A stretch of 64,000 bases of DNA from Methylomonas sp. LW13 (GTDB lineage Bacteria > Pseudomonadota > Gammaproteobacteria > Methylococcales > Methylomonadaceae): positions 4,774,001 through 4,838,000 of the forward strand of contig NZ_CP033381.1 of NCBI RefSeq assembly GCF_016865255.1, in the 5' to 3' direction. Positions 1-64,000 of this stretch are shown piece after piece (within the stretch, counting starts at the first letter, position 1; each line of letters opens with the position of its first letter). Both the position numbers and the translations under genes were made by a program. The notes beneath the pieces were generated by a model, which was not told the DNA's origin, did no database searches, and was given only the letters and a program-made list of their open reading frames with translations.

Positions 1-1077
1 AAGGTAACGGGCAACACCGGTTAAAGGCTCTGCCTGGCTTTGCAATTGCAACTGTTTAGCCAGATATTTGGCAACACCGGTTGGCTTTGGCGCTTGTTGG
101 GCAGACGCAGCCTGCCTAGCCAGGTAACGCTCTACAGCGGAACCCTCAAATGCCAATTCCTCGGCCAATTCTTGCTGAGCATTTTGTTCTTGATTCAATT
201 GGGCCTCCGCTTTTTCCTGTTGAGCTAGTGCTTCCGCTGCAACATATCGGGCAATCAAAGCCGCAGCTGCCGCTTTTCTATCCGCGGCCGCCTGCTCCGC
301 CAAAAATTTAGCAACGCCGGTCAAAGGTGCCTGCTCTTTTAATAAGCGCTCCTGTTGAGCGACATACTTAGCCACACCGGTTACTAGTGGCGCATCTTTC
401 GCCAACAAAGCTTGCTTGGTGACGTATTTGCTCACACCAGTTGCGATTGGCGCGTCTTTTGCCAAGACATCTTGCTTCAACACATACTTGGCAACGCCGG
501 TAACCAATGGCGTCGAACCGCTCTGCATATTTTGCCGAATGACGTATTTAGCAACATTGGTCACCGCATGGTCTTCGCGATCATTTTTGGTAATGTATTT
601 AGAAACCCCAGTCACCGGCGCTTCTTTAGACAAAATCGACTGCTTGATCAGGTATTTGGCAACTCGAGTAACCGGATTTTCCGCTTGTTGAGTCAGATAT
701 TTATCGACACCCGTCGCAACCGGCTCGCTTTCGATCACCTCTTCAACAAGCTCTTCTACTACTTCGGCAACTTCTTCAATTTCTTCTTCTACTGTTTCCT
801 CGACAACCGGATCCACGACAGCCGCCTCTTCGACGGCTTGCCGAGCTTTTTCCAATTGCGCTTGCAAGGCTAGATATTTCGCCACCCCGGTCAACGGCTG
901 ACCGTTTTCGTCCAGCTCCGGCTTTGGCGGCTCAAGTTTTTGCAGATAACGGGCTACACCGGTCAATTGCGCGTCTTCGCTGTCGACACGAGAATAAGCT
1001 TCCGACCGACTATCACTACTGCTCGAATTGTCGAACAAAAAGCCGAATAAGCTATTCATCAAACTGTTTGTTGCCAT
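1..1077 (-). CDS. TGVxKYL tandem-repeat protein, C-terminus beyond the left edge
   Basis: The minus strand is open for 359 codons from an ATG at 1077 to the window edge, with no stop. No signal peptide or clear membrane helix is seen; residues 6-15 are a short hydrophobic stretch. A TGVAKYL-type motif recurs about 14 times: near residues 39, 63, 122, 137, 156, 173, 193, 213, 233, 252, 333 and 353, plus two weak copies near 274 and 313. Copies at 193-252 have a regular spacing of about 20 residues. A very acidic Glu/Val segment lies at about 82-117. The same motif occurs four times in the protein at 61418-62101. It follows tkt and a secreted FQPKV-motif gene, 79 bases away. I do not recognise the family. 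A role as a cytoplasmic multivalent docking protein is inference. Confidence 0.85.
   Translation of the reverse strand, partial: MATNSLMNSLFGFLFDNSSSSDSRSEAYSRVDSEDAQLTGVARYLQKLEPPKPELDENGQPLTGVAKYLALQAQLEKARQAVEEAAVVDPVVEETVEEEIEEVAEVVEELVEEVIESEPVATGVDKYLTQQAENPVTRVAKYLIKQSILSKEAPVTGVSKYITKNDREDHAVTNVAKYVIRQNMQSGSTPLVTGVAKYVLKQDVLAKDAPIATGVSKYVTKQALLAKDAPLVTGVAKYVAQQERLLKEQAPLTGVAKFLAEQAAADRKAAAAALIARYVAAEALAQQEKAEAQLNQEQNAQQELAEELAFEGSAVERYLARQAASAQQAPKPTGVAKYLAKQLQLQSQAEPLTGVARYL
63..963 (-). repeat. In-frame coding repeats for TGVxKYL motifs
   Basis: On the plus strand the repeats appear as recurring blocks resembling 'gcaacaccggt' followed by variable DNA. They keep frame with the minus-strand gene. 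Three successive units near codons 192-252 are about 60 to 63 bases long with similar linkers (KQ-x-LLAKDAP type); other linkers are longer and divergent. This is a degenerate protein-level repeat, not a perfect DNA satellite. Confidence 0.7.
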
Positions 1078-1156: not shown

Positions 1157-1441
1157 CTAGGAACCGGCCGCGCTGAATACTACTTTAGGCTGAAAACTGG
1201 CTGCCGGGTACTTGGCATCAACTTCTGACGTCGGCTCCTGCTTTGCTTCGGCGCAAGGCGCACTAGCATTACTGGTAGCGGCGACCGGAGAACTGGCCTT
1301 GGCTACCTCCGCAATAGCAGGATCTCTGTAGAGAACCTTAGGTTGAAAATCCGCGGCAGGATATTCCTGGGCACTGACAGCAGCCGATGCAGCAAACAGC
1401 AAGCCCGTTAAAAACTTCTTAATCAATTGCGTGTTTATCAT
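1157..1441 (-). CDS. Small secreted protein with two YPAADFQPKV motifs
   Basis: 94 residues. The N-terminus (charged start, hydrophobic core to about residue 20, then AVSAQ) is a Sec signal peptide, probably cleaved near residue 24. The mature protein of about 70 residues is mostly two copies of one motif: YPAADFQPKVLY at 27-38 and YPAASFQPKVVF at 78-89, joined by an Ala/Ser/Glu linker with a single Cys at 63. The protein ends just after the second copy. The same paired motif, also after a signal peptide, begins the membrane protein at 61418-62101. An AAGGTGG ribosome site precedes the ATG. It lies 77 bases downstream of tkt. No known family recognised; likely periplasmic. Confidence 0.85.
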   Translation of the reverse strand: MINTQLIKKFLTGLLFAASAAVSAQEYPAADFQPKVLYRDPAIAEVAKASSPVAATSNASAPCAEAKQEPTSEVDAKYPAASFQPKVVFSAAGS

Positions 1442-1518: not shown

Positions 1519-3534
1519 TTAAAGCACAGCTTCCACATTAGCGACGACATTGTCCACGGTAAAGCCGAACTCTTTGAAGAGCTGACCTGCCGGGGCCGAT
1601 TCGCCGAAACGGTCCAATCCTACGACTCTACCCGCGCTGCCGGCGTATTTCCACCAGCTGTCGGTTACTCCCGCTTCTACTACCACGCGCTGGGTCACGC
1701 TTGGCGGCAATACGCTGTCTTTGTAAGCTTGATCTTGCGCTTCGAAGACGTTGGTAGACGGTAGTGACACCACGCGGATTTTTTTGCCTTTCGCGCTCAA
1801 TGCGTCAGCGGCTTTCAACGCCAATTCCACTTCGGAACCGGTGGCAATGATGATCGCGTCCGGCGCGCCGTCGCTGTCTTTCAGGATGTAGCCCCCTTTG
1901 CTGATCGCGTCAATTTGTGCGGCGGTGCGAGGCACGTGCGGCAGGTTTTGACGAGAGAAGATCAGGGTGCTCGGTCCATCTTGACGTTCGATAGCGGCTT
2001 TCCAGCAAACGGCCGACTCGACGGCGTCGCAAGGACGCCAGACGTGCATGTTGGGAATCATGCGCAGGGTGGCGGTTTGTTCGACCGGTTGGTGGGTCGG
2101 GCCGTCTTCGCCCAGACCAATGGAGTCGTGGGTGTAAACGAAGATGGTCGGGATTTTCATCAACGCGGCCATGCGCAGGGCGTTACGGGCGTATTCCGAG
2201 AACATCAGGAAGGTGGCGCCGTAGGGTTTGAAGCCGCCGTGCAGGGTGATGCCGTTCATGATGGCGGACATACCGAATTCACGCACACCGTAGTAGGCGT
2301 AGTTGCCGTCGAAGCCCGGTTGGTTGACGTCTTTGCAGCCGGACCACAGGGTCAGGTTGGAGCCCGCCAAGTCGGCAGAGCCGCCCAGCAGTTCGGGCAA
2401 CAAGGGGCCAAAGCCGTTCAAGGTGTTTTGTGAGGCTTTGCGGCTGGCGATGGTTTCGCCTTTGGCATCCACCGCAGCGATAAACGCTTTGGATTTTTCA
2501 GCCCAATCGGCAGGCAGTTGGTTTTTGATCACGCGACGTTCAAATTCGGCCGCGAGTTCAGGATGTGCGGCTTTGTAAGCGGCAAATTTGGCGTTCCAGG
2601 CGCTTTCCAGCGTGGCTCCTTTGGCGTTGGCATCCCAACCGGCTTTGATGTCAGCAGGAATGTCGAACGGCGCATGCGGCCAACCCAGGTTTTCACGGGT
2701 CAAGGCAATTTCAGCTTCACCTAAGGCTGCACCATGGCATTCTTCTTTGCCTTGTTTGTTCGGCGAACCGAAGCCGATGGTGGTTTGGCAGCAGATGATA
2801 GAAGGCTTGTCGGTGACTTTTTTGGCTTCTTCAATCGCGGCTTTGACGGCGTCGGGGTTGTGGCCGTCGACTTTAGGAATGACATGCCAGCCGTAGGCTT
2901 CAAAGCGTTTCGGAGTGTCGTCGAGGAACCAGCCGGCAACGTTGCCATGACCACGGACTTCGCCGTCGATGGAGATGTTGTTGTCGTCGTAGAAGGCGAT
3001 CAGTTTACCCAGTTTCATGGAGCCGGCCAGGGAGCAGGCTTCGTGGGAGATACCTTCCATCAAGCAACCGTCACCCAGGAATACGTAGGTGTGGTGGTCG
3101 ACGATGTCGTGACCGGGACGGTTGAATTGGCCGGCCAGGGTGCGTTCGGCCAAGGCGAAACCGACGGCATTGGTGATGCCTTGTCCCAAGGGCCCTGTGG
3201 TGGTTTCCACACCTTCGGTGTAACCGTATTCAGGGTGTCCTGGGGTTTGCGAGTGCAGTTGGCGGAACTGTTTCAGTTCTTCGATCGGCAGGTTGTAGCC
3301 AGCCAAGTGCAGCAAGGAATAAATCAGCATGGAGCCGTGACCGTTGGACAGGATGAAGCGGTCGCGGTTGGGCCATTTGGGGTTGCTGGGGTTGTGTTGC
3401 AGAAAATCATTCCACAATACTTCTGCGATGTCGGCCATCCCCATCGGGGCTCCGGGGTGACCGGAGTTGGCTTTCTGTACGGCGTCCATGCTAAGTGCGC
3501 GGATGGCGTTCGCTAAGTCTCGGCGCGAAGGCAT
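1519..3534 (-). CDS. tkt: Transketolase (copy 1)
   Basis: 671 residues, close to E. coli TktA (663). Transketolase moves two-carbon units between sugar phosphates with thiamine diphosphate and here regenerates ribulose 5-phosphate for the RuMP cycle. Visible hallmarks: SGHPGAP near 24-30, NGHG near 64-67, the GDG...NN cofactor motif at 154-156 and 185-186, and the pyrimidine-domain segment [18 protein letters not shown] at 3534 ([14 protein letters not shown]) is chosen because AAAGGAG lies just upstream and it aligns with E. coli; the frame is open to 3639. Compared with TktA there is a short insertion around residues 194-200 (RGHGNVA). It follows hps by 148 bases. Identical by eye to the partial copy at 62173-64000 except next to the stop codon. 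Confidence 0.97.
1529..3346 (-). repeat. tkt: Long direct repeat, copy A (transketolase)
   Basis: About 1.8 kb matching 62183-64000 in the same orientation, offset 60654 bases. By eye I saw no difference inside the block, and translations in all frames agree. Similarity stops at the gene's 3' end: two substitutions in the last sense codons (both synonymous) and then unrelated flanks. The true length is unknown because copy B is cut by the window edge. Confidence 0.9.
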
Positions 3535-3682: not shown

Positions 3683-4330
3683 TTATGCAGCAGCAGCGTC
3701 AACCAGTTCGCGGATTTCGCGAGCAGCTGTTGCTGGGCATGGTGCGCCATAGATAGCAGCACCAACCACGATGATGTTAGCGCCAGCTTCAACGACTTGT
3801 TGAACAGTCGCTTGTTTGATACCGCCGGCAACAGAAATACGTACGCCCAAGCCCAAACGAGCGATGTCGTTCAAGTCGCCAAATGGGGTTTGGCCTGCCG
3901 CTTGTGCATCCAAACCGGTGTGAATACCGACGATTTGCGCGCCCAATTTAACAGACTCTCTCGCGCACTCTGCTTTGTCAGCCACGTTGATCAAGTCGAT
4001 TTGGGTTTCGGCAGCGTGTTTTTTTGCTGCTTTGATAACGCCAGCGATAGTGGCCAAACCAGATACGCCCAGCACGGTGCAGATGTCTGCGCCTGCAGCG
4101 TAGAAAGCGCCTGCTTCGTATTCGCCTGCGTCCATAGTTTTCAAGTCAACCAACAACAATTTGTCTGGGTAACGTTGTCTCAGTTCTTTGACCAGGTTGA
4201 TACCGTTATATTTAATGCAAGGAGTGCCGATTTCAAAAATATCGACATAAGGCGCTACTTTATCAGCCAATTCGACAGTTTGGTTGAAATCCAGTGAATC
4301 CAACGCCATTTGAATTAATGGTCTTGCCAT
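3683..4330 (-). CDS. hxlA: 3-hexulose-6-phosphate synthase
   Basis: 215 residues, the usual length. It condenses formaldehyde with ribulose 5-phosphate to 3-hexulose 6-phosphate, the entry step of the RuMP pathway, in the cytoplasm. It belongs to the OMP decarboxylase-like barrel superfamily: the DxKxxD metal/catalytic motif is at 62-67 (VDLKTMDAG), with the phosphate-binding end VAGGIK and NIIVVGAAIYGA. GGAG lies upstream of the ATG. No 6-phospho-3-hexuloisomerase gene is next to it; tkt follows instead, so the isomerase must be elsewhere. A good sigma-70-like promoter lies about 135 bases upstream. Confidence 0.96.
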   Translation of the reverse strand: MARPLIQMALDSLDFNQTVELADKVAPYVDIFEIGTPCIKYNGINLVKELRQRYPDKLLLVDLKTMDAGEYEAGAFYAAGADICTVLGVSGLATIAGVIKAAKKHAAETQIDLINVADKAECARESVKLGAQIVGIHTGLDAQAAGQTPFGDLNDIARLGLGVRISVAGGIKQATVQQVVEAGANIIVVGAAIYGAPCPATAAREIRELVDAAAA

Positions 4331-29133: not shown

Positions 29134-30045
29134 ATGAAGATTAGAGTTCTCGGCGCCGGCGCCGGCGGCGGCTTTCCGCAATGGAACTGCAACTGCGACA
29201 ATTGCCGACGCCTGCGTAATGGCCAATTCAACGGCAAAGCCCGCACCCAGTCATCAATCGCGATCAGTACCGACAACCGCAACTGGCTGCTGTTTAACAC
29301 CTCGCCGGACATTCGCGCCCAATTGGAGGCGTTTCCCGCCATTCAGCCTAAAGAAGGCATCCGCGATACCGGTATCAAGGCCGTGCTCTTGATCGACAGC
29401 CAGATCGACCATACCACCGGCATGCTGATGCTGCGCGAAGGCAAACCGTTGAACGTGTATTGTACCGAGATGGTCAGGCAGGATTTGACTAGTGGTTTTC
29501 CGCTCTTCAACATGTTGAAAGACTATTGCACCGTCAATCACCATCCGATTGCCTGCGACGAAACCCCGTTCGAGATTCCCGGCATTGATGACATCCGCAT
29601 TTATGCCCACGCCCTGAAAAGCAAGGCACCGCCCTATTCGCCGCACCGCCACGATCCGCACGACGGCGACAACATCGGCGTCATCGTCGAGCAAATTTCC
29701 ACCGGTAAAAAACTGTATTACTCACCCGGCCTCGGTGAGATCGAGCCTCACGTCCTGCAAGCGATGCTGAACGTTGACTGTCTAATGGTAGACGGTACCT
29801 TCTGGACCGATGACGAAATGGTGACACGCGGCATTAGCCAAAAACGTGCTCGCGACATTGGCCACTTGCCGCAGTCCGGGCCTGGCGGCATGATTGAAGT
29901 ATTGAATGGCGTGGCGAACGCTCGCAAGATTTTGATTCATATCAACAACACCAACCCGATTCTCGACGAAGATTCGCCGGAGCGTAAAACCCTGGATGCC
30001 AACGGCATCGAAGTGGCTTACGACGGACTGGAAATTGACTTATAA
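29134..30045 (+). CDS. pqqB: PQQ biosynthesis protein PqqB
   Basis: 303 residues, metallo-beta-lactamase fold. Thought to hydroxylate the tyrosine part of the Glu-Tyr intermediate. The zinc-site CxCxxC is at 19-24 (CNCDNC), preceded by [14 protein letters not shown]. Further metal-ligand segments: [16 protein letters not shown] and [11 protein letters not shown]. Second gene of the pqq operon. Confidence 0.96.
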
Positions 30046-30056
30046 AAAGGTGTGAC

Positions 30057-30785
30057 ATGACTGCAGATAATCAACCGTGGAGCCGCGAAGAATTCGAAGC
30101 CAAATTGCGTGGGATGGAAAAGTTCTACCACATCCATCATCCGATGCACACGCTGATGAATGAAGGCAAACTGACCAAGCAACAATTGCAAGGCTGGGTA
30201 GCCAACCGCTTTTATTACCAGGTGATGATTCCGATCAAGGACGCCAATATCATGGCCAACTGTCCTGATCGAGAAACCCGCGCCAAATGGGTTCAACGCA
30301 TACTCGACCACGACGGCCATCCCGGCGACCCGGGTGGCATCGAAGCCTGGATACGTTTAGGCATCGCGGTTGGCCTGAGCCGCGAAGAAATTACTTCGCT
30401 GGAACACGTGCTGCCCGGCGTACGTTTTGCCGTGGACGCTTACGTCAATTTCGCCCGCCGCGCCGAGTGGCATGAAGCCGCCAGTTCCTCTCTAACGGAA
30501 CTATTCGCCCCCAAAATTCATCAACAGCGCTTGGACAACTGGCCCGACGTCTATCCTTGGGTAGAACAAGAGGGTTACACTTACTTCCGCAAACGCCTGA
30601 CCGAAGCCCGCCGCGATGTGGAACACGGCTTGGAACTGACGCTAGACTGGTACAAAACCCGCGAACAGCAGGAACGCATGGTGCAAATTCTGAAATTTAA
30701 ACTGGATGTATTGTGGAGCATGGCCGATGCGATGTATCTGGCTTATGTCGCCGACATGCCGCCGTATTTCAATATCGAAAAATAA
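30057..30785 (+). CDS. pqqC: Pyrroloquinoline-quinone synthase PqqC
   Basis: 242 residues, haem-oxygenase-like all-helical fold. Catalyses the last oxidation and ring closure to PQQ. Family motifs: [38 protein letters not shown], and RILDHDG; active-site His and Tyr residues fall in these. It starts 11 bases after pqqB. It is not fused to PqqD, unlike in Methylorubrum. Confidence 0.96.
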
Positions 30786-30787
30786 CC

Positions 30788-31351
30788 ATGCAAACCGCCG
30801 AGCGACTTCATTTTAGTGCCGAGGATTATCTGGCTTGGGAAGCAACCCAGGCCGAGAAGCACGAGTTCGTCGCCGGCGAAGTGTTTGCGATGACGGGAGC
30901 TCGACAGGATCATGTCGTCGTCAGCCTGAATATCGCATCCGCCTTGAAACAACGCTTACGCGGCACGTTTTGCCGGCCTTATATCGCAGATTTGAAATTG
31001 AAAGTCGAAGCAGCCGAAGCGTTTTTCTATCCTGATGTGATGGTATCCTGCCATCCTGGCGATCTAGGCAACCAGCAATATATTTCCAACCCAACGCTGA
31101 TCGTCGAAGTTCTATCCGACTCGACCGCTGCTTACGACCGCGGCGGCAAATTCGCCGCCTACCGCAAACTCGCGTCGCTACAGGAATACCTGATCGTCGA
31201 CATCGACGCGCGCCGCGTCGAGTGCTTCCGCCGCACAGCCGAAAACGATTGGCTACTGCACGATTACATAGGCGACGTCGATTGCCAACTACACAGTTTG
31301 AGCCTCAGCCTGCCGCTCGCGGAAATTTTTGAAGACATCGAAACGACCTGA
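30788..31351 (+). CDS. Uma2-family putative endonuclease inside the pqq operon
   Basis: 187 residues from the ATG at 30788, 2 bases after the pqqC stop. PD-(D/E)xK-like Uma2 (DUF820) fold: EKHEFVAGEVFAMTGA near the start, FYPDVMVSC carrying the Asp, then LIVEVLSDSTAAYDRGGKFAAYRK with the ExxS/K signature, and QEYLIVDIDARRVECFRR. No strong ribosome site, so translation may depend on pqqC. The family is abundant in cyanobacteria and some Proteobacteria with no firm role. It splits pqqC from pqqD and has no transposase or repeats beside it. Confidence 0.9.
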   Translation: MQTAERLHFSAEDYLAWEATQAEKHEFVAGEVFAMTGARQDHVVVSLNIASALKQRLRGTFCRPYIADLKLKVEAAEAFFYPDVMVSCHPGDLGNQQYISNPTLIVEVLSDSTAAYDRGGKFAAYRKLASLQEYLIVDIDARRVECFRRTAENDWLLHDYIGDVDCQLHSLSLSLPLAEIFEDIETT

Positions 31352-31384
31352 TTCTCCAGGCGTTTGCTTAAACACCGGAACCCC

Positions 31385-31657
31385 ATGACCATCGCCCCAG
31401 ACCAACTTATCCAATTCTCGCCCCTGCACAGGCTGCAATGGGAAGAAGCCCAGCAAAAATATGTGATTCTCTATCCCGAAGGCATGGTCGAGTTAAACCA
31501 AAGTTCGGCAGAAATCCTCAAGCTATGCGACGGTAGCCGGCTGCTGGCACAAATCGTCAGCGAACTGGAGGAGAAATTCGCCACCTCCGGCCTGACCAAC
31601 GACATCACTAATTTTTTGAACGTAGCATTGCAAAATGGCTGGATCAGACAAGCTTAA
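31385..31657 (+). CDS. pqqD: PQQ peptide chaperone PqqD
   Basis: 90 residues from the ATG at 31385 ([21 protein letters not shown]). RiPP recognition element that holds PqqA and presents it to PqqE; the winged-helix-like core contains [26 protein letters not shown]. Its 3' end overlaps pqqE by 23 bases, suggesting tight coupling with its partner. Confidence 0.95.
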
Positions 31658-32759
31658 TATCACCCCACCGCGCTGGCTGCTGGCGGAACTGAGCTACAAG
31701 TGCCCGCTGCAATGCCCTTATTGCTCCAACCCCTTGGATTACGCTAAATATCCGAACGAATTAAGTACCGAGGATTGGAAGCGCGTATTAAGCCAAGCGC
31801 GCAAAATGGGTGCGGTACAGCTAGGCTTTTCCGGCGGCGAACCGCTAACCCGCCAGGACTTGACAGAATTGGTAGCATACGCGCGCGAACTGGGTTATTA
31901 CTCCAACCTGATCACTTCGGGTTATGGCTTGAGCGAAGAAAAAATCGTCGAATTGAAACAAGCCGGTTTGGACCATATCCAGATCAGTATTCAGGCCAGC
32001 ACCCAGGAACTGAACGACCACATCGCCGGCACTTCGACTTATCAGCATAAGCAAGAAGTGGCAAAGCTGATCAAGAAACACGGCTATCCAATGGTGCTGT
32101 GTGTGGTGATCCACCGCGAAAATATTCACCAAATGCCGGAAATTTTGCAGATGGCCGAAAACCTCGGCGCCGATTATCTGGAACTGGCCAACACCCAATA
32201 TTACGGCTGGGCGCATTTGAATCGAGACGCCTTGCTGCCCACCCGCGAGCAGTTTCAGGAAGCGGAAAAAATTGCCCAGGCTTATAAAGAAAAAGTAGCC
32301 GGCAAAATGAAAATTTATTACGTGGTGCCAGACTACTACGAAGACCGGCCAAAAGCCTGCATGAACGGTTGGGGCACGACGTTTTTGACCATCGCCCCGG
32401 ACGGTACCGCGTTGCCCTGCCATTCGGCTCGCGAATTGCCCGGCCTAGATTGCCCGAACGTCAAGGATTTCAGCATCGAAGAAATCTGGAATGAGTCGAA
32501 AACCTTCAACTTCTTCCGCGGCACCGAGTGGATGCAGGAGCCTTGCCGCAGCTGCGACGAGAAGCTTAAAGACTTCGGCGGTTGCCGCTGCCAGGCCTTC
32601 TTGTTCAATGGCGACATGTACAGTACTGACCCGGTATGCAGCAAATCGCCGGAGCGACACAGAATTGACGCCGCGATTGATTCGGCGCGCGAACTCGCCT
32701 TGTCCGACCGGGAAAAGCCGCTGATATTCCGCAACAGCAAAAACTCCAAACAATTTTAA
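31635..32759 (+). CDS. pqqE: Radical SAM enzyme PqqE
   Basis: 374 residues. Cross-links Glu and Tyr of PqqA by a carbon-carbon bond. Radical SAM CxxxCxxC at Cys23, Cys27 and Cys30 (KCPLQCPYC), SGGEPL nearby, and a C-terminal SPASM domain with Cys-rich segments ([28 protein letters not shown]) binding auxiliary clusters. Last gene of the operon; no pqqF or pqqG follows. Confidence 0.96.
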
Positions 32760-58964: not shown

Positions 58965-60044
58965 TTACAGCGAATTAACTGCGTTTAATTCTTGGAAGGC
59001 TTGCTCTAAACGAGTCACCATGCCAACTTGCCCGGCACGTTGCCAAACACGTGGGTCATAGTATTTTTTGTTCGGTTTATCGGCACCTTCCGGGTTACCG
59101 ATTTGACTTTGCAAATAGCCTTCGTTCTTTTTGTAAAACTCCATCACACCGGCCCAGCTAGCCCATTGAGTATCGGTATCGATGTTCATTTTGACAACAC
59201 CGTAACTGATGGATTCTTTGATCTCTTCAGGAGAAGAACCTGAACCACCGTGGAAAACGAAGTTCAATGTGTTATGCGGCAAACCGAATTTCTCGGAAAC
59301 AAATTTTTGAGAATTGTCCAGAATTTTCGGCGTCAATTTAACGTTACCTGGAGAGTAAACGCCATGAACGTTACCGAACGATGCGGCGATAGTGAATCTG
59401 TGACTGATTTTGCTCAGTTGCTCGTAAGCGTAAGCAACGTCTTCAGGTTGGGTATACAGCGCAGAATGATCCATACCGCTGTTGTCGACACCGTCTTCCT
59501 CACCACCGGTACAACCCAGTTCGATTTCCAGAGTCATACCCATTTTGGACATGCGCTCCAAATACTTACCGCAGATTTCAATGTTTTCTTGCAAACTTTC
59601 TTCGGAAAGATCCAGCATGTGCGAGCTGAACAAAGGCTTGCCGGTTGCAGCGAAGAATTTTTCACCTTCATCCAGCATGCCGTCTACCCATGGCAGCAAT
59701 TTTTTTGCCGCGTGATCTGTATGCAAAATAACAGGTACGCCATACAGTTCCGCCATGCGGTGAACATGGTGAGCACCGGAAATGGCGCCAACGATAGAGC
59801 AACCTTGGCCTTCCAGTTTCAGACCTTTACCAGCAACGAATGCGGCGCCGCCATTAGAAAATTGAATGACGACAGGTGACTTGGCTTTTGCTGCCGCTTC
59901 CAATACCGAGTTAATGGTATCGGTGCTGATGACGTTTACAGCCGGCAACGCAAAATTATTTTCTTTGCAGATAGCAAAGATTTTTTGTACATCTTCACCG
60001 GTGACAACACCCGGCTTAACAACATCAAATATTTTTTGTGGCAT
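58965..60044 (-). CDS. fba: Fructose-bisphosphate aldolase, class II
   Basis: 359 residues, exactly the length of E. coli FbaA. Zinc-dependent aldolase; in the RuMP cycle it cleaves fructose 1,6-bisphosphate. Seen: VILHTDHAAKKLLPW (zinc His and active-site Asp), LEIELGCTGGEEDGVDN, and FVFHGGSGSSPEEI (zinc His and phosphate loop). It follows tal by about 100 bases. Confidence 0.97.
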   Translation of the reverse strand: MPQKIFDVVKPGVVTGEDVQKIFAICKENNFALPAVNVISTDTINSVLEAAAKAKSPVVIQFSNGGAAFVAGKGLKLEGQGCSIVGAISGAHHVHRMAELYGVPVILHTDHAAKKLLPWVDGMLDEGEKFFAATGKPLFSSHMLDLSEESLQENIEICGKYLERMSKMGMTLEIELGCTGGEEDGVDNSGMDHSALYTQPEDVAYAYEQLSKISHRFTIAASFGNVHGVYSPGNVKLTPKILDNSQKFVSEKFGLPHNTLNFVFHGGSGSSPEEIKESISYGVVKMNIDTDTQWASWAGVMEFYKKNEGYLQSQIGNPEGADKPNKKYYDPRVWQRAGQVGMVTRLEQAFQELNAVNSL

Positions 60045-60145: not shown

Positions 60146-61132
60146 TTAGGCTTCCAAGGCAGCCAAACGGTCCGACAACAATTTTTCCAGTGCTTCCAGC
60201 GCTTTGGCGAAACCATCGATACCTTCGGCCAATTTTTCTTTAGCCATCCGGTTTTCTTCATGCATGCGGTCAAAAGTGGCTTTGTCGACTGAAATTTTTT
60301 CGATTGAAGCTGTTGCTGCTTTGGCAGGATCCAGTTTGCGCGGCAAGTCACCCTCAACGGATTGCAACTCTGCCAATAAAGACGGCGCGATGGTCAACAA
60401 ATCGCAGCCCGCCAATTCGGTGATCTCGCCGATGTTACGGAAGCTGGCGCCCATGACTTCGGTTTTGTAGCCGAATTTTTTGTAGTAGTTATAGACTTCG
60501 GTCACTGACAATACACCTGGATCTTCAGCAGGCGCATAAGAATCACGGCCTGTGTCTTTTTTATACCAGTCTAAGATACGGCCAACGAATGGTGAAATCA
60601 GTGTGATACCGTTTTCCGCACAAGCAATCGCTTGGTGCAAACCGAACAACAATGTCAGGTTGGTGTGAATACCTTCTTTTTCCAATACGGCGGCAGCTTG
60701 AATGCCTTCCCAGGTAGCAGCGATTTTAATTAAAACGCGCTCTTTGGAAATGCCTGCAGCTTCGTATTGAGCGATCAAGTCGCGACCTTTAGCGATGGTG
60801 GCTTCGGTATCGTAAGACAAACGCGCATCGACTTCAGTCGATACACGACCTTCGACGATTTCCAGAATTTTCAAGCCAAAAGACACGGCCAAACGATCAA
60901 ATGCCAGGGTCACAACTTCTGCAGCCGAAGCAGCGGCACCCAATGTTGCTCTTGCACCTTTCAAAGTATCGTCAACAATTCCTTGATATTGCGGCATTTG
61001 TGCAGCAGCGGTGATCAAAGAGGGATTGGTGGTTGCATCGCGCGGTTTGAAAGTTTCGATCGCTTGAATATCACCGGTATCGGCGACAACCACAGTTATT
61101 TCACGGAGTTGTTCGAGTAAATTTTTTGCCAT
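60146..61132 (-). CDS. tal: Transaldolase
   Basis: 328 residues, E. coli TalB type. Schiff-base Lys136 in [14 protein letters not shown]; substrate region DATTNPSL at 32-39 and [12 protein letters not shown] also match. Transfers dihydroxyacetone units in regeneration of ribulose 5-phosphate. A GAGGAT site precedes the ATG. It is preceded by the membrane repeat protein and followed by fba. Confidence 0.96.
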
Positions 61133-61417: not shown

Positions 61418-62101
61418 TTAAGCTTTATCACGTAAATACTTTTCCACGCCAGTCGCTTTCGCAGCGGCAGCTTCCCGATCTCTTACGATTTGCTTTGCCA
61501 TGTATTTGGCAACACCGGTAGCAGGATTGGAATCTTGTTTTTCCAAGTATTTGGCAACGCCGGTTTTATTCGCACCCATTTTTTCCAGATACTTTTCAAC
61601 GCCGGTTGCGCCAGATGCAACTTGGTAATCATCAGCTGAAGAACCTTTGGCACTTTTAGGCGATTTTTTGTTGTAGATAAAAAATCCGGCTACAGCCAAC
61701 AAAATTAAACCAATGTAGGAAAAATCAGAGGACGCAGCCTTTTCTGTTTGTATCACATCTACCGCTGCTTCCGCAGAAGTTGTGGAGGCAGATGACGAGC
61801 TTGACGATTTAGCCGCAGTTGGTGCTGCAGAGCTGTGCTTGTAGTCAGCATCGCTGTATAACACTTTAGGTTGAAAATTCGTCGCTGGGAAAGCTGGATC
61901 CGCTTCAACTTCTTTTACAGCTGGTTTCGCTGCAGGTGCTGTGGCAGCCGCAGGGGCAGCTTTGCTGTCGTTATATTCAGGATTGGTATAAAGCACCTTT
62001 GGCTGATAATCAGCCGCCGGATAATCCGATCCCGCCATAGCTAAGGAACTGGTCAGCATTAGAGCTGCCATCACGCCTTTCGTTAATTCATTTCTTTTCA
62101 C
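61418..62101 (-). CDS. Membrane protein joining FQPKV and TGVxKYL motifs
   Basis: 227 residues from a GTG at 62101 with AGGTG six bases upstream. Order: signal peptide (1-24, ending AMAG); YPAADYQPKVLY at 27-38 and FPATNFQPKVLY at 71-82; Ala/Ser/Thr linker; one membrane helix at 128-143 (YIGLILLAVAGFFIY) followed by NKKSPKSAK, so the C-terminus should be cytoplasmic; TGVEKYL-type motifs at 166-172, 180-186, 195-201 and 217-223. It sits between tkt copy 2 and tal. The left-end genes at 1157 and 1077 carry the same two motif types in separate proteins. No known family recognised. Confidence 0.9.
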   Translation of the reverse strand: MKRNELTKGVMAALMLTSSLAMAGSDYPAADYQPKVLYTNPEYNDSKAAPAAATAPAAKPAVKEVEADPAFPATNFQPKVLYSDADYKHSSAAPTAAKSSSSSSASTTSAEAAVDVIQTEKAASSDFSYIGLILLAVAGFFIYNKKSPKSAKGSSADDYQVASGATGVEKYLEKMGANKTGVAKYLEKQDSNPATGVAKYMAKQIVRDREAAAAKATGVEKYLRDKA

Positions 62102-62172
62102 GTCTATCACCTATGCTGTTAGAAACGTGAGGCTTCGATCATTTAATCCAAACCTCACCTAAGTTTACAAAA

Positions 62173-64000
62173 TTAAAGAACGGCTTCCACATTAGCGACG
62201 ACATTGTCCACGGTAAAGCCGAACTCTTTGAAGAGCTGACCTGCCGGGGCCGATTCGCCGAAACGGTCCAATCCTACGACTCTACCCGCGCTGCCGGCGT
62301 ATTTCCACCAGCTGTCGGTTACTCCCGCTTCTACTACCACGCGCTGGGTCACGCTTGGCGGCAATACGCTGTCTTTGTAAGCTTGATCTTGCGCTTCGAA
62401 GACGTTGGTAGACGGTAGTGACACCACGCGGATTTTTTTGCCTTTCGCGCTCAATGCGTCAGCGGCTTTCAACGCCAATTCCACTTCGGAACCGGTGGCA
62501 ATGATGATCGCGTCCGGCGCGCCGTCGCTGTCTTTCAGGATGTAGCCCCCTTTGCTGATCGCGTCAATTTGTGCGGCGGTGCGAGGCACGTGCGGCAGGT
62601 TTTGACGAGAGAAGATCAGGGTGCTCGGTCCATCTTGACGTTCGATAGCGGCTTTCCAGCAAACGGCCGACTCGACGGCGTCGCAAGGACGCCAGACGTG
62701 CATGTTGGGAATCATGCGCAGGGTGGCGGTTTGTTCGACCGGTTGGTGGGTCGGGCCGTCTTCGCCCAGACCAATGGAGTCGTGGGTGTAAACGAAGATG
62801 GTCGGGATTTTCATCAACGCGGCCATGCGCAGGGCGTTACGGGCGTATTCCGAGAACATCAGGAAGGTGGCGCCGTAGGGTTTGAAGCCGCCGTGCAGGG
62901 TGATGCCGTTCATGATGGCGGACATACCGAATTCACGCACACCGTAGTAGGCGTAGTTGCCGTCGAAGCCCGGTTGGTTGACGTCTTTGCAGCCGGACCA
63001 CAGGGTCAGGTTGGAGCCCGCCAAGTCGGCAGAGCCGCCCAGCAGTTCGGGCAACAAGGGGCCAAAGCCGTTCAAGGTGTTTTGTGAGGCTTTGCGGCTG
63101 GCGATGGTTTCGCCTTTGGCATCCACCGCAGCGATAAACGCTTTGGATTTTTCAGCCCAATCGGCAGGCAGTTGGTTTTTGATCACGCGACGTTCAAATT
63201 CGGCCGCGAGTTCAGGATGTGCGGCTTTGTAAGCGGCAAATTTGGCGTTCCAGGCGCTTTCCAGCGTGGCTCCTTTGGCGTTGGCATCCCAACCGGCTTT
63301 GATGTCAGCAGGAATGTCGAACGGCGCATGCGGCCAACCCAGGTTTTCACGGGTCAAGGCAATTTCAGCTTCACCTAAGGCTGCACCATGGCATTCTTCT
63401 TTGCCTTGTTTGTTCGGCGAACCGAAGCCGATGGTGGTTTGGCAGCAGATGATAGAAGGCTTGTCGGTGACTTTTTTGGCTTCTTCAATCGCGGCTTTGA
63501 CGGCGTCGGGGTTGTGGCCGTCGACTTTAGGAATGACATGCCAGCCGTAGGCTTCAAAGCGTTTCGGAGTGTCGTCGAGGAACCAGCCGGCAACGTTGCC
63601 ATGACCACGGACTTCGCCGTCGATGGAGATGTTGTTGTCGTCGTAGAAGGCGATCAGTTTACCCAGTTTCATGGAGCCGGCCAGGGAGCAGGCTTCGTGG
63701 GAGATACCTTCCATCAAGCAACCGTCACCCAGGAATACGTAGGTGTGGTGGTCGACGATGTCGTGACCGGGACGGTTGAATTGGCCGGCCAGGGTGCGTT
63801 CGGCCAAGGCGAAACCGACGGCATTGGTGATGCCTTGTCCCAAGGGCCCTGTGGTGGTTTCCACACCTTCGGTGTAACCGTATTCAGGGTGTCCTGGGGT
63901 TTGCGAGTGCAGTTGGCGGAACTGTTTCAGTTCTTCGATCGGCAGGTTGTAGCCAGCCAAGTGCAGCAAGGAATAAATCAGCATGGAGCCGTGACCGTTG
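62173..64000 (-). CDS. tkt: Transketolase (copy 2), 5' end beyond the right edge
   Basis: At least 608 codons; the frame is open to the window edge, and the [13 protein letters not shown] region shows about 61 N-terminal residues are missing. Identical by eye to copy 1 over all sequence present in both, down to the last codons, where GCC-GTT-CTT replaces GCT-GTG-CTT (both changes synonymous). It is followed 71 bases later by the FQPKV/TGVxKYL membrane protein, then tal and fba. Confidence 0.95.
62183..64000 (-). repeat. tkt: Long direct repeat, copy B (transketolase)
   Basis: Matches 1529-3346 in the same orientation with no difference seen by eye. The repeat reaches the window edge, so its full extent, possibly including hps upstream, cannot be seen. 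Confidence 0.9.

Follow-up and report, generated by a model that had tools for sequence, protein, structure and literature searches.

How a large and toxic flux of formaldehyde passes from the periplasmic methanol dehydrogenase of methanotrophs to the cytoplasmic hexulose-phosphate synthase (HPS) is, to our knowledge, an open question, and the locus analysed here raises it in a particular form: what is the function of a membrane protein that carries one kind of short repeated motif before its single membrane helix and another kind after it, and whose gene lies among those of the RuMP pathway? Methanol dehydrogenase, the periplasmic source of the formaldehyde, uses PQQ as its cofactor, and the purification of HPS from Methylococcus in 1974 reportedly touched on membrane association. 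The gene, here called A, lies towards the right end of a 64 000 nt stretch of the Methylomonas sp. LW13 genome (the window), and its longest ORF (61418–62110, minus strand) encodes 230 aa. Residues are numbered from the start at 62110; the GTG at 62101, selected in the original prediction, is nevertheless the better choice of start, since AGGTG lies six bases upstream of it. This ORF shows the predicted layout: after a signal peptide come two YPAADFQPKVLY-type motifs, then a single membrane helix, and finally four TGVxKYL motifs (below, 'F' denotes the YPAADFQPKVLY-type or FQPKV motif, 'T' the TGVxKYL motif, and AF2 the AlphaFold model):

61418..62101, minus strand: gene A, candidate for a bitopic scaffold protein; starts at GTG, with its ORF reaching a second GTG at 62110
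62027..62101, minus strand: Sec signal peptide of A, ending SSLAMA; AF2 helix 5–24; aligned across homologues
61988..62023, minus strand: periplasmic motif F1 of A, YPAADYQPKVLY, residues 30–41
61856..61891, minus strand: periplasmic motif F2 of A, FPATNFQPKVLY, residues 74–85
61667..61729, minus strand: transmembrane helix of A; AF2 helix 128–148, with which the best 19-residue hydropathy window coincides
61586..61606, minus strand: T motif 1 of A, TGVEKYL, residue 169; AF2 helix 170–177
61544..61564, minus strand: T motif 2 of A, TGVAKYL, residue 183; AF2 helix 184–194
61499..61519, minus strand: T motif 3 of A, TGVAKYM, residue 198; AF2 helix 199–217
61433..61453, minus strand: T motif 4 of A, TGVEKYL, residue 220; AF2 helix 221–229

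The signal peptide and a Lys-rich stretch past the helix would place the N-terminal part of A in the periplasm and its C-terminal part in the cytoplasm. Within motif F1, residues Y30, P31, A32 and P37 are invariant among 25 A homologues, as are P75, A76, P81 and V83 within F2.

A sits between tkt and tal, with fba beyond tal, and the HPI and HPS genes precede this tkt copy just outside the window; hps, hpi, tkt, tal and fba beside A all score above their NCBIfam cut-offs. The left end of the window holds a second tkt copy, after which come two further genes, B and C, whose motif types had been noted in the original prediction and which proved to be real genes:

62173..64000, minus strand: tkt, transketolase copy 1 (TIGR00232), continuing past the window
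60146..61132, minus strand: tal, transaldolase (TIGR00874), in conserved order
58965..60044, minus strand: fba, class II fructose-bisphosphate aldolase (TIGR01520)
3683..4330, minus strand: second copy of hps (hexulose-phosphate synthase), sharing 96% identity with the copy that lies outside the window
1519..3534, minus strand: tkt copy 2, with 99.9% identity to copy 1 across 1829 bp
1157..1441, minus strand: gene B, encoding a small secreted protein that has a pair of FQPKV motifs; signal peptide, no second hydrophobic helix
1..1077, minus strand: gene C, encoding a soluble protein of TGVxKYL repeats, truncated where the window stops
97..315, minus strand: long helix of C, residues 255–327, between two motif groups (AF2, ten-residue block pLDDT 79–97)

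That the tkt copies are so nearly identical, though about 60 kb apart, suggests recent gene conversion. The window also carries pqqB, pqqC and pqqE (NCBIfam; 29134–32759) between its two RuMP loci. At its full length (L007:8680-10077) C has 465 aa and 17 T-type motifs, with no signal peptide and, by hydropathy, no membrane helix. Three motif arrangements occur: F only and secreted (B), T only and soluble (C), and F–membrane–T (A). The number of motifs ranges from 8 to 18 among 19 C proteins of the own family, and the median motif spacing over all C-type proteins is 20 residues.

In the own genome the T motif was found in A and C alone. The pattern T-G-V-x-K-Y followed by a hydrophobic residue occurs at 13 sites in the DNA of the 5.23 Mb genome, four in A and nine in C, against a single site for the reversed pattern, and all ten matches of a T-repeat profile in the own genome fall in A or C. 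As would be expected of a multivalent linker, the motifs are conserved and the linkers are not: in the 25 A homologues the commonest residue makes up a fraction of 0.84 at T-motif positions and 0.82 at F-motif positions, versus 0.41 in the linkers, the highest value in 10 000 random residue draws being 0.66. The T form met most often among 296 motifs from 44 proteins of the A and C kinds is [TS]GV[A/S][KR]Y[L/M]x[KR]Q, in which V was found in every motif where the relaxed expression used permits V or I, and Y is required by that expression itself. Overall AlphaFold confidence was low (mean pLDDT 58 for A and 68 for C), which is to be expected if both chains are, as these values suggest, mostly disordered. 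Within them the modelled helix begins one residue past the motif start in all four T motifs of A; in C it starts no more than three residues from the motif start in 16 of the 17 motifs, exactly one residue in 14, and the remaining motif, at 156, falls within a stretch of pLDDT below 50. The models thus present several short helical motifs (four in A, 17 in C) on a probably disordered chain, and suggest that the Thr/Ser may cap each T-motif helix, with V, Y and L sharing one face.

None of the three proteins has an explanatory family in Pfam or NCBIfam. A match of C to PF12220 (24.1 bits, cut-off 23; residues 48–113) covers a charged stretch with one T motif, and was judged to reflect composition. 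Among PDB sequences the F profile found nothing and the T profile three matches that are not meaningful (E 0.3–0.9), and a search of plasmids with C gave no match. In the open-access literature searched, no motif string was matched and no description was found in titles or the opening parts of abstracts; in the part of the M. capsulatus genome report that was available, the duplicated RuMP block is described by its enzymes, with a gene like A unmentioned (PMC517821). A, B and C are a real and conserved set of proteins and, within the reach of these searches, an undescribed one.

Gene order in a number of families strongly supports the tie of these proteins to the RuMP genes that was proposed in the original prediction. 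In the own family (f1; from its named loci, Methylomonas and relatives, the closest being Methylomonas fluvii EbB at 97%), 20 loci were fetched from 20 of the 96 matching genomes, in 15 genera, and in all 20 hps-hpi lies upstream, tkt directly before A and tal after it. C follows A directly and intact in 12 of these loci and broken in one (L048), lies by a second hps-hpi or tkt copy in four (broken in L041), and is absent from the fetched 20 kb in three. One locus, L038 (genome G010), has two hps-hpi-tkt units preceding A-tal-fba, and each hps is itself preceded by a copy of C; together with the identical scores of its HPS copies this suggests cassette amplification that carried C along. Families f3 and f5, with one locus each, keep the gene order of the own family. 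In f4 the operon is rearranged, and A is in ten of 11 loci either a neighbour of hps or flanked by tkt and tal, the exception being L121 and the tally including L162 (G103), whose frames look broken. In the Methylophaga-like family (as we take f10 to be), a soluble repeat protein of 97–187 aa with 4–7 motifs lies between hps and tal-hps-hpi in three of three genomes. Over all fetched loci, 84 of 93 ORF rows with at least two T motifs, a count that contains overlapping frames and some genomes twice, have a RuMP gene in the same orientation no more than 1.5 kb away; the nine others are in L121, L124 (at a contig end), L125 (twice), L212, L161, L187, L188 and L189.

The same tie appears in the phyletic distribution. 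At a threshold of E <= 0.001, and with some matches partial, A matched 96 of 101 genomes and 28 of 29 genera of the own family and, searched as a profile, 118 of the 151 genomes of the order. When 369 genomes sampled from the class were searched, the A profile was found in six, the T-repeat profile in seven and HPS in six, and the six genomes with A profile, T repeats and HPS are identical, every A-profile genome thus having hps; they come from two lineages only, and so do not represent six independent events. The seventh T-profile genome (G359, E 0.007), in which the match lies among apparent ribosomal protein genes, was treated as chance. Family f10 is the only other family with HPS in this sample, and since the T profile had been widened by two f4 and three f10 pieces, f10 was partly in its training; an A1 profile built without the f10 pieces also matches the same three f10 genomes. 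Motif proteins were thus not widespread among non-methylotrophs in the class sample; a wide spread there would have spoken against the original prediction. Two further cases were set aside: G030, apparently with A and without hps, where the contig ends just past hpi, and contig G116:C1 (f6), an f3-like cluster scoring the same as G102 and probably contamination.

The profile search found no A match in eight HPS-bearing f4 genomes (G121, G127, G136, G141, G147, G162, G171 and G174), which argues against a universal role for A; the HPS of these genomes (E 1e-94 to 1e-81) matches more weakly than that of nearly all A-bearing f4 genomes. A was likewise unmatched in four small genomes of the own family (G021, G047, G069 and G087, genus g21).

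Considering these motifs and their genetic setting, we put the chances at about even that A, B and C form a multivalent scaffold that organizes formaldehyde assimilation at the membrane. The T motif would then be a short helix that docks at a single site of an oligomeric enzyme in the cytoplasm, most likely HPS or HPI; C would cross-link the docked enzyme into a cluster, and A would tie the cluster to the membrane. What favours HPS/HPI, still a tentative client, is that hps-hpi stays by A in four f4 loci (L108, L120, L122 and L126) in which tkt, tal and fba are separated from it, lie on the opposite strand or are beyond reach. A docking site was sought by contrasting stand-alone HPS (49 sequences) and HPI (45), nearly all from loci with T motifs, with 19 fused HPS-HPI proteins, and the two consistent positions in HPS and one in HPI were too few to define it; since the fused proteins may bind too, a missing docking signature does not count out HPS/HPI.

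The lack of such a signature on HPS or HPI would also suit a different partner. Positioning or polar hub proteins (ParA-type, FimV-type) are common, and the T motif might bind a general hub of this kind, A and C then serving to place RuMP gene products, or the membrane that bears them, at one site of the cell, much as the ChpA-like kinase of f10 would be placed. Consistent with this, a ChpA-like kinase of pilus type carries T motifs in all three sampled f10 genomes (L189:3-2549, L188:4601-10207 and L161:5745-11852; two to six motifs by a narrower pattern). Two of these kinases have Hpt, HATPase, CheW and receiver domains and the third is cut by a contig end after Hpt, and the motifs, of TSVERYIQQQ, TSVDRYI or TGVARYL type, stand before or between the Hpt domains. 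The G200 kinase has six TSVERYIQQQ copies, and in G200 and G559 the motif variant of the kinase closely resembles the one found in this lineage on the repeat protein linked to RuMP genes, two kinases sharing the local type TSV[ED]RYI with the repeat protein of the same genome; this likeness would indicate either a shared partner from outside the RuMP enzymes or copying of the motif. Against a general hub, the own genome has no motif match beyond A and C, and T repeats occur in one of 363 class-sample genomes without HPS, which is chance level, despite hubs being common; we therefore consider this reading unlikely. A 298-aa protein of G010 (L187:8478-9374), with four T motifs, a small Cys-containing C-terminal segment and no Pfam family, also lies far from RuMP genes. 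Of the proposed RuMP role, the link itself thus holds by gene order and by the match with HPS, but the f10 kinases and the eight HPS-bearing f4 genomes without an A match speak against its exclusivity.

On the periplasmic side, the scaffold reading supposes that the F motifs of A and B would bind a partner from the PQQ/methanol-dehydrogenase system, and here gene context gives independent support to what had been offered as a speculative choice of partner. In other genera of the family, B mostly comes directly after the genes of an ABC transporter that is PqqT-like and so PQQ-binding: of 20 B genes examined, 17, in eight of ten genera, lie 0–472 bp from the gene for the ATPase, and L146, missed by the strict expression and so outside this count, has the arrangement too. 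The binding protein of the transporter, examined in one representative, matched PDB 9b1u by phmmer (E 4e-55), and 9B1V, identical to it in sequence, is PqqT with PQQ (PMC12828617). In the own genome the transporter is present and has no B beside it; B adjoins tkt instead, as in L147. The transporter also occurs with no recognized B in the four sufficiently long stretches (L216, L218, L220 and L221), and is retained in the four g21 genomes, with no recognized B beside it in the two stretches that were long enough.

Moreover, in both inspected genomes of the own genus (G186 and G187), a paralogue of A with an F-like motif, a membrane helix and three T motifs is placed between genes for an SRPBCC-type protein and a response regulator, and adjoins a PQQ dehydrogenase gene of the methanol/ethanol family (PF01011, TIGR03075). 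In G186 the dehydrogenase gene is followed by genes for PF00497, cytochrome c and PF02315 (methanol dehydrogenase beta subunit), an order that is presumably mxaF-J-G-I. Taking the RuMP context of T together with the PQQ and methanol dehydrogenase context of F, we suggest that each motif type belongs with one of the two sides of a single reaction sequence. These neighbourhoods might also fit maturation or regulatory factors in place of a scaffold, in which the F motifs would, for example, supply PQQ or aid methanol dehydrogenase and the T motifs would sequester a RuMP enzyme or modulate it, as the adjacency of B to the transporter and the position of the A paralogue within the dehydrogenase cluster might indicate; considering that 8–18 motif copies in a soluble chain suit multivalent cross-linking better than a one-to-one regulator, we find this quite unlikely.

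The F part can apparently also stand alone. In f6 (L110, L111, L113 and L118) and f2 (L117) we found F-motif proteins with a membrane helix and an acidic/basic tail, ending KTKR[ST]RRR in all four f6 proteins, that have no T motifs and, in five of five loci, no RuMP gene in the fetched stretch. In L110 and L111 the neighbours of the F-motif gene are not C1 genes; those nearby include what we take to be mutS and dsbC. Since A spans the membrane with multivalent motifs on both faces, and since F-motif matches occur, in the samples searched, only in the methanotroph order, including the PF02461-bearing f2/f6 genomes G108, G105, G116 and G122, it is formally conceivable that A, B and C shape or stack the pMMO-bearing intracytoplasmic membranes, with F in the lumen and T between the sheets. 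Yet the f10 T proteins go with RuMP genes and show no F-motif match, 14 f7 and f8 genomes with a PF02461-type monooxygenase and without HPS have no A match, and the neighbours are RuMP, PQQ and methanol dehydrogenase genes, with no motif match near the PF02461 genes of the own genome; a role in membrane stacking is on this evidence very unlikely.

Returning to the scaffold, the fullest form of the proposal is a transmembrane metabolon in which F would hold methanol dehydrogenase or the PQQ supply, T would gather HPS-HPI, A would couple the two and B and C would extend the network, so that periplasmic formaldehyde would enter the cytoplasm beside its fixing enzyme. In this complete form the proposal is doubtful. 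Its closest analogues lie in CO2 fixation: CsoS2 and CcmM have repeated elements, in CcmM folded domains, encoded with the enzyme they gather, and the repeats of A and C are similarly encoded alongside candidate client enzymes, but are unrelated to either in sequence, and no shell protein gene was apparent among the ORFs listed around A, B and C. Membrane-anchored pyrenoid proteins, reportedly described by Meyer et al. in 2020 as carrying the same Rubisco-binding motif as the soluble linker, resemble A and C in sharing a motif between anchored and soluble proteins; A differs from them in its second, different motif pair across the membrane, a pair that also occurs separately on a secreted protein (B). 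For the proposed mode of action, the linkers EPYC1, CsLinker and CsoS2 serve as the comparison (PMC11570498, PMC12368222). EPYC1 and CsLinker are, as C probably is, disordered chains with repeated short helices, which in their case bind one carbon-fixing enzyme; unlike them, A, B and C belong to the RuMP pathway, have no sequence relation to them and have a client that is a candidate only, the modelled C has a long central helix, and the chain of A crosses the membrane. Profile searches of families and of the PDB, used in place of one-by-one comparisons, and the RuMP neighbours gave no sign of descent from EPYC1, CsLinker or CsoS2. With MxaI, PqqT and other accessories of PQQ and methanol dehydrogenase the F side shares neighbourhood and compartment; unlike these, A and B fall into no family of Pfam or NCBIfam, and PF02315 belongs to a separate neighbouring gene.

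Finally, methanol dehydrogenase artificially fused with HPS-HPI improved methanol conversion in vitro (PMC8879981), which makes a natural device of that purpose plausible. The conserved set described here, whose halves are encoded beside the methanol oxidation and HPS systems, makes formaldehyde transfer directly testable. If the proposal is true, the gathering of enzymes by short repeated motifs would extend from CO2 fixation to C1 assimilation, and the set would offer a genetic part for synthetic methylotrophy; gammaproteobacterial methanotrophs would then possess a shell-less carbon-fixation organelle across the membrane, in which formaldehyde is made and fixed at one spot.
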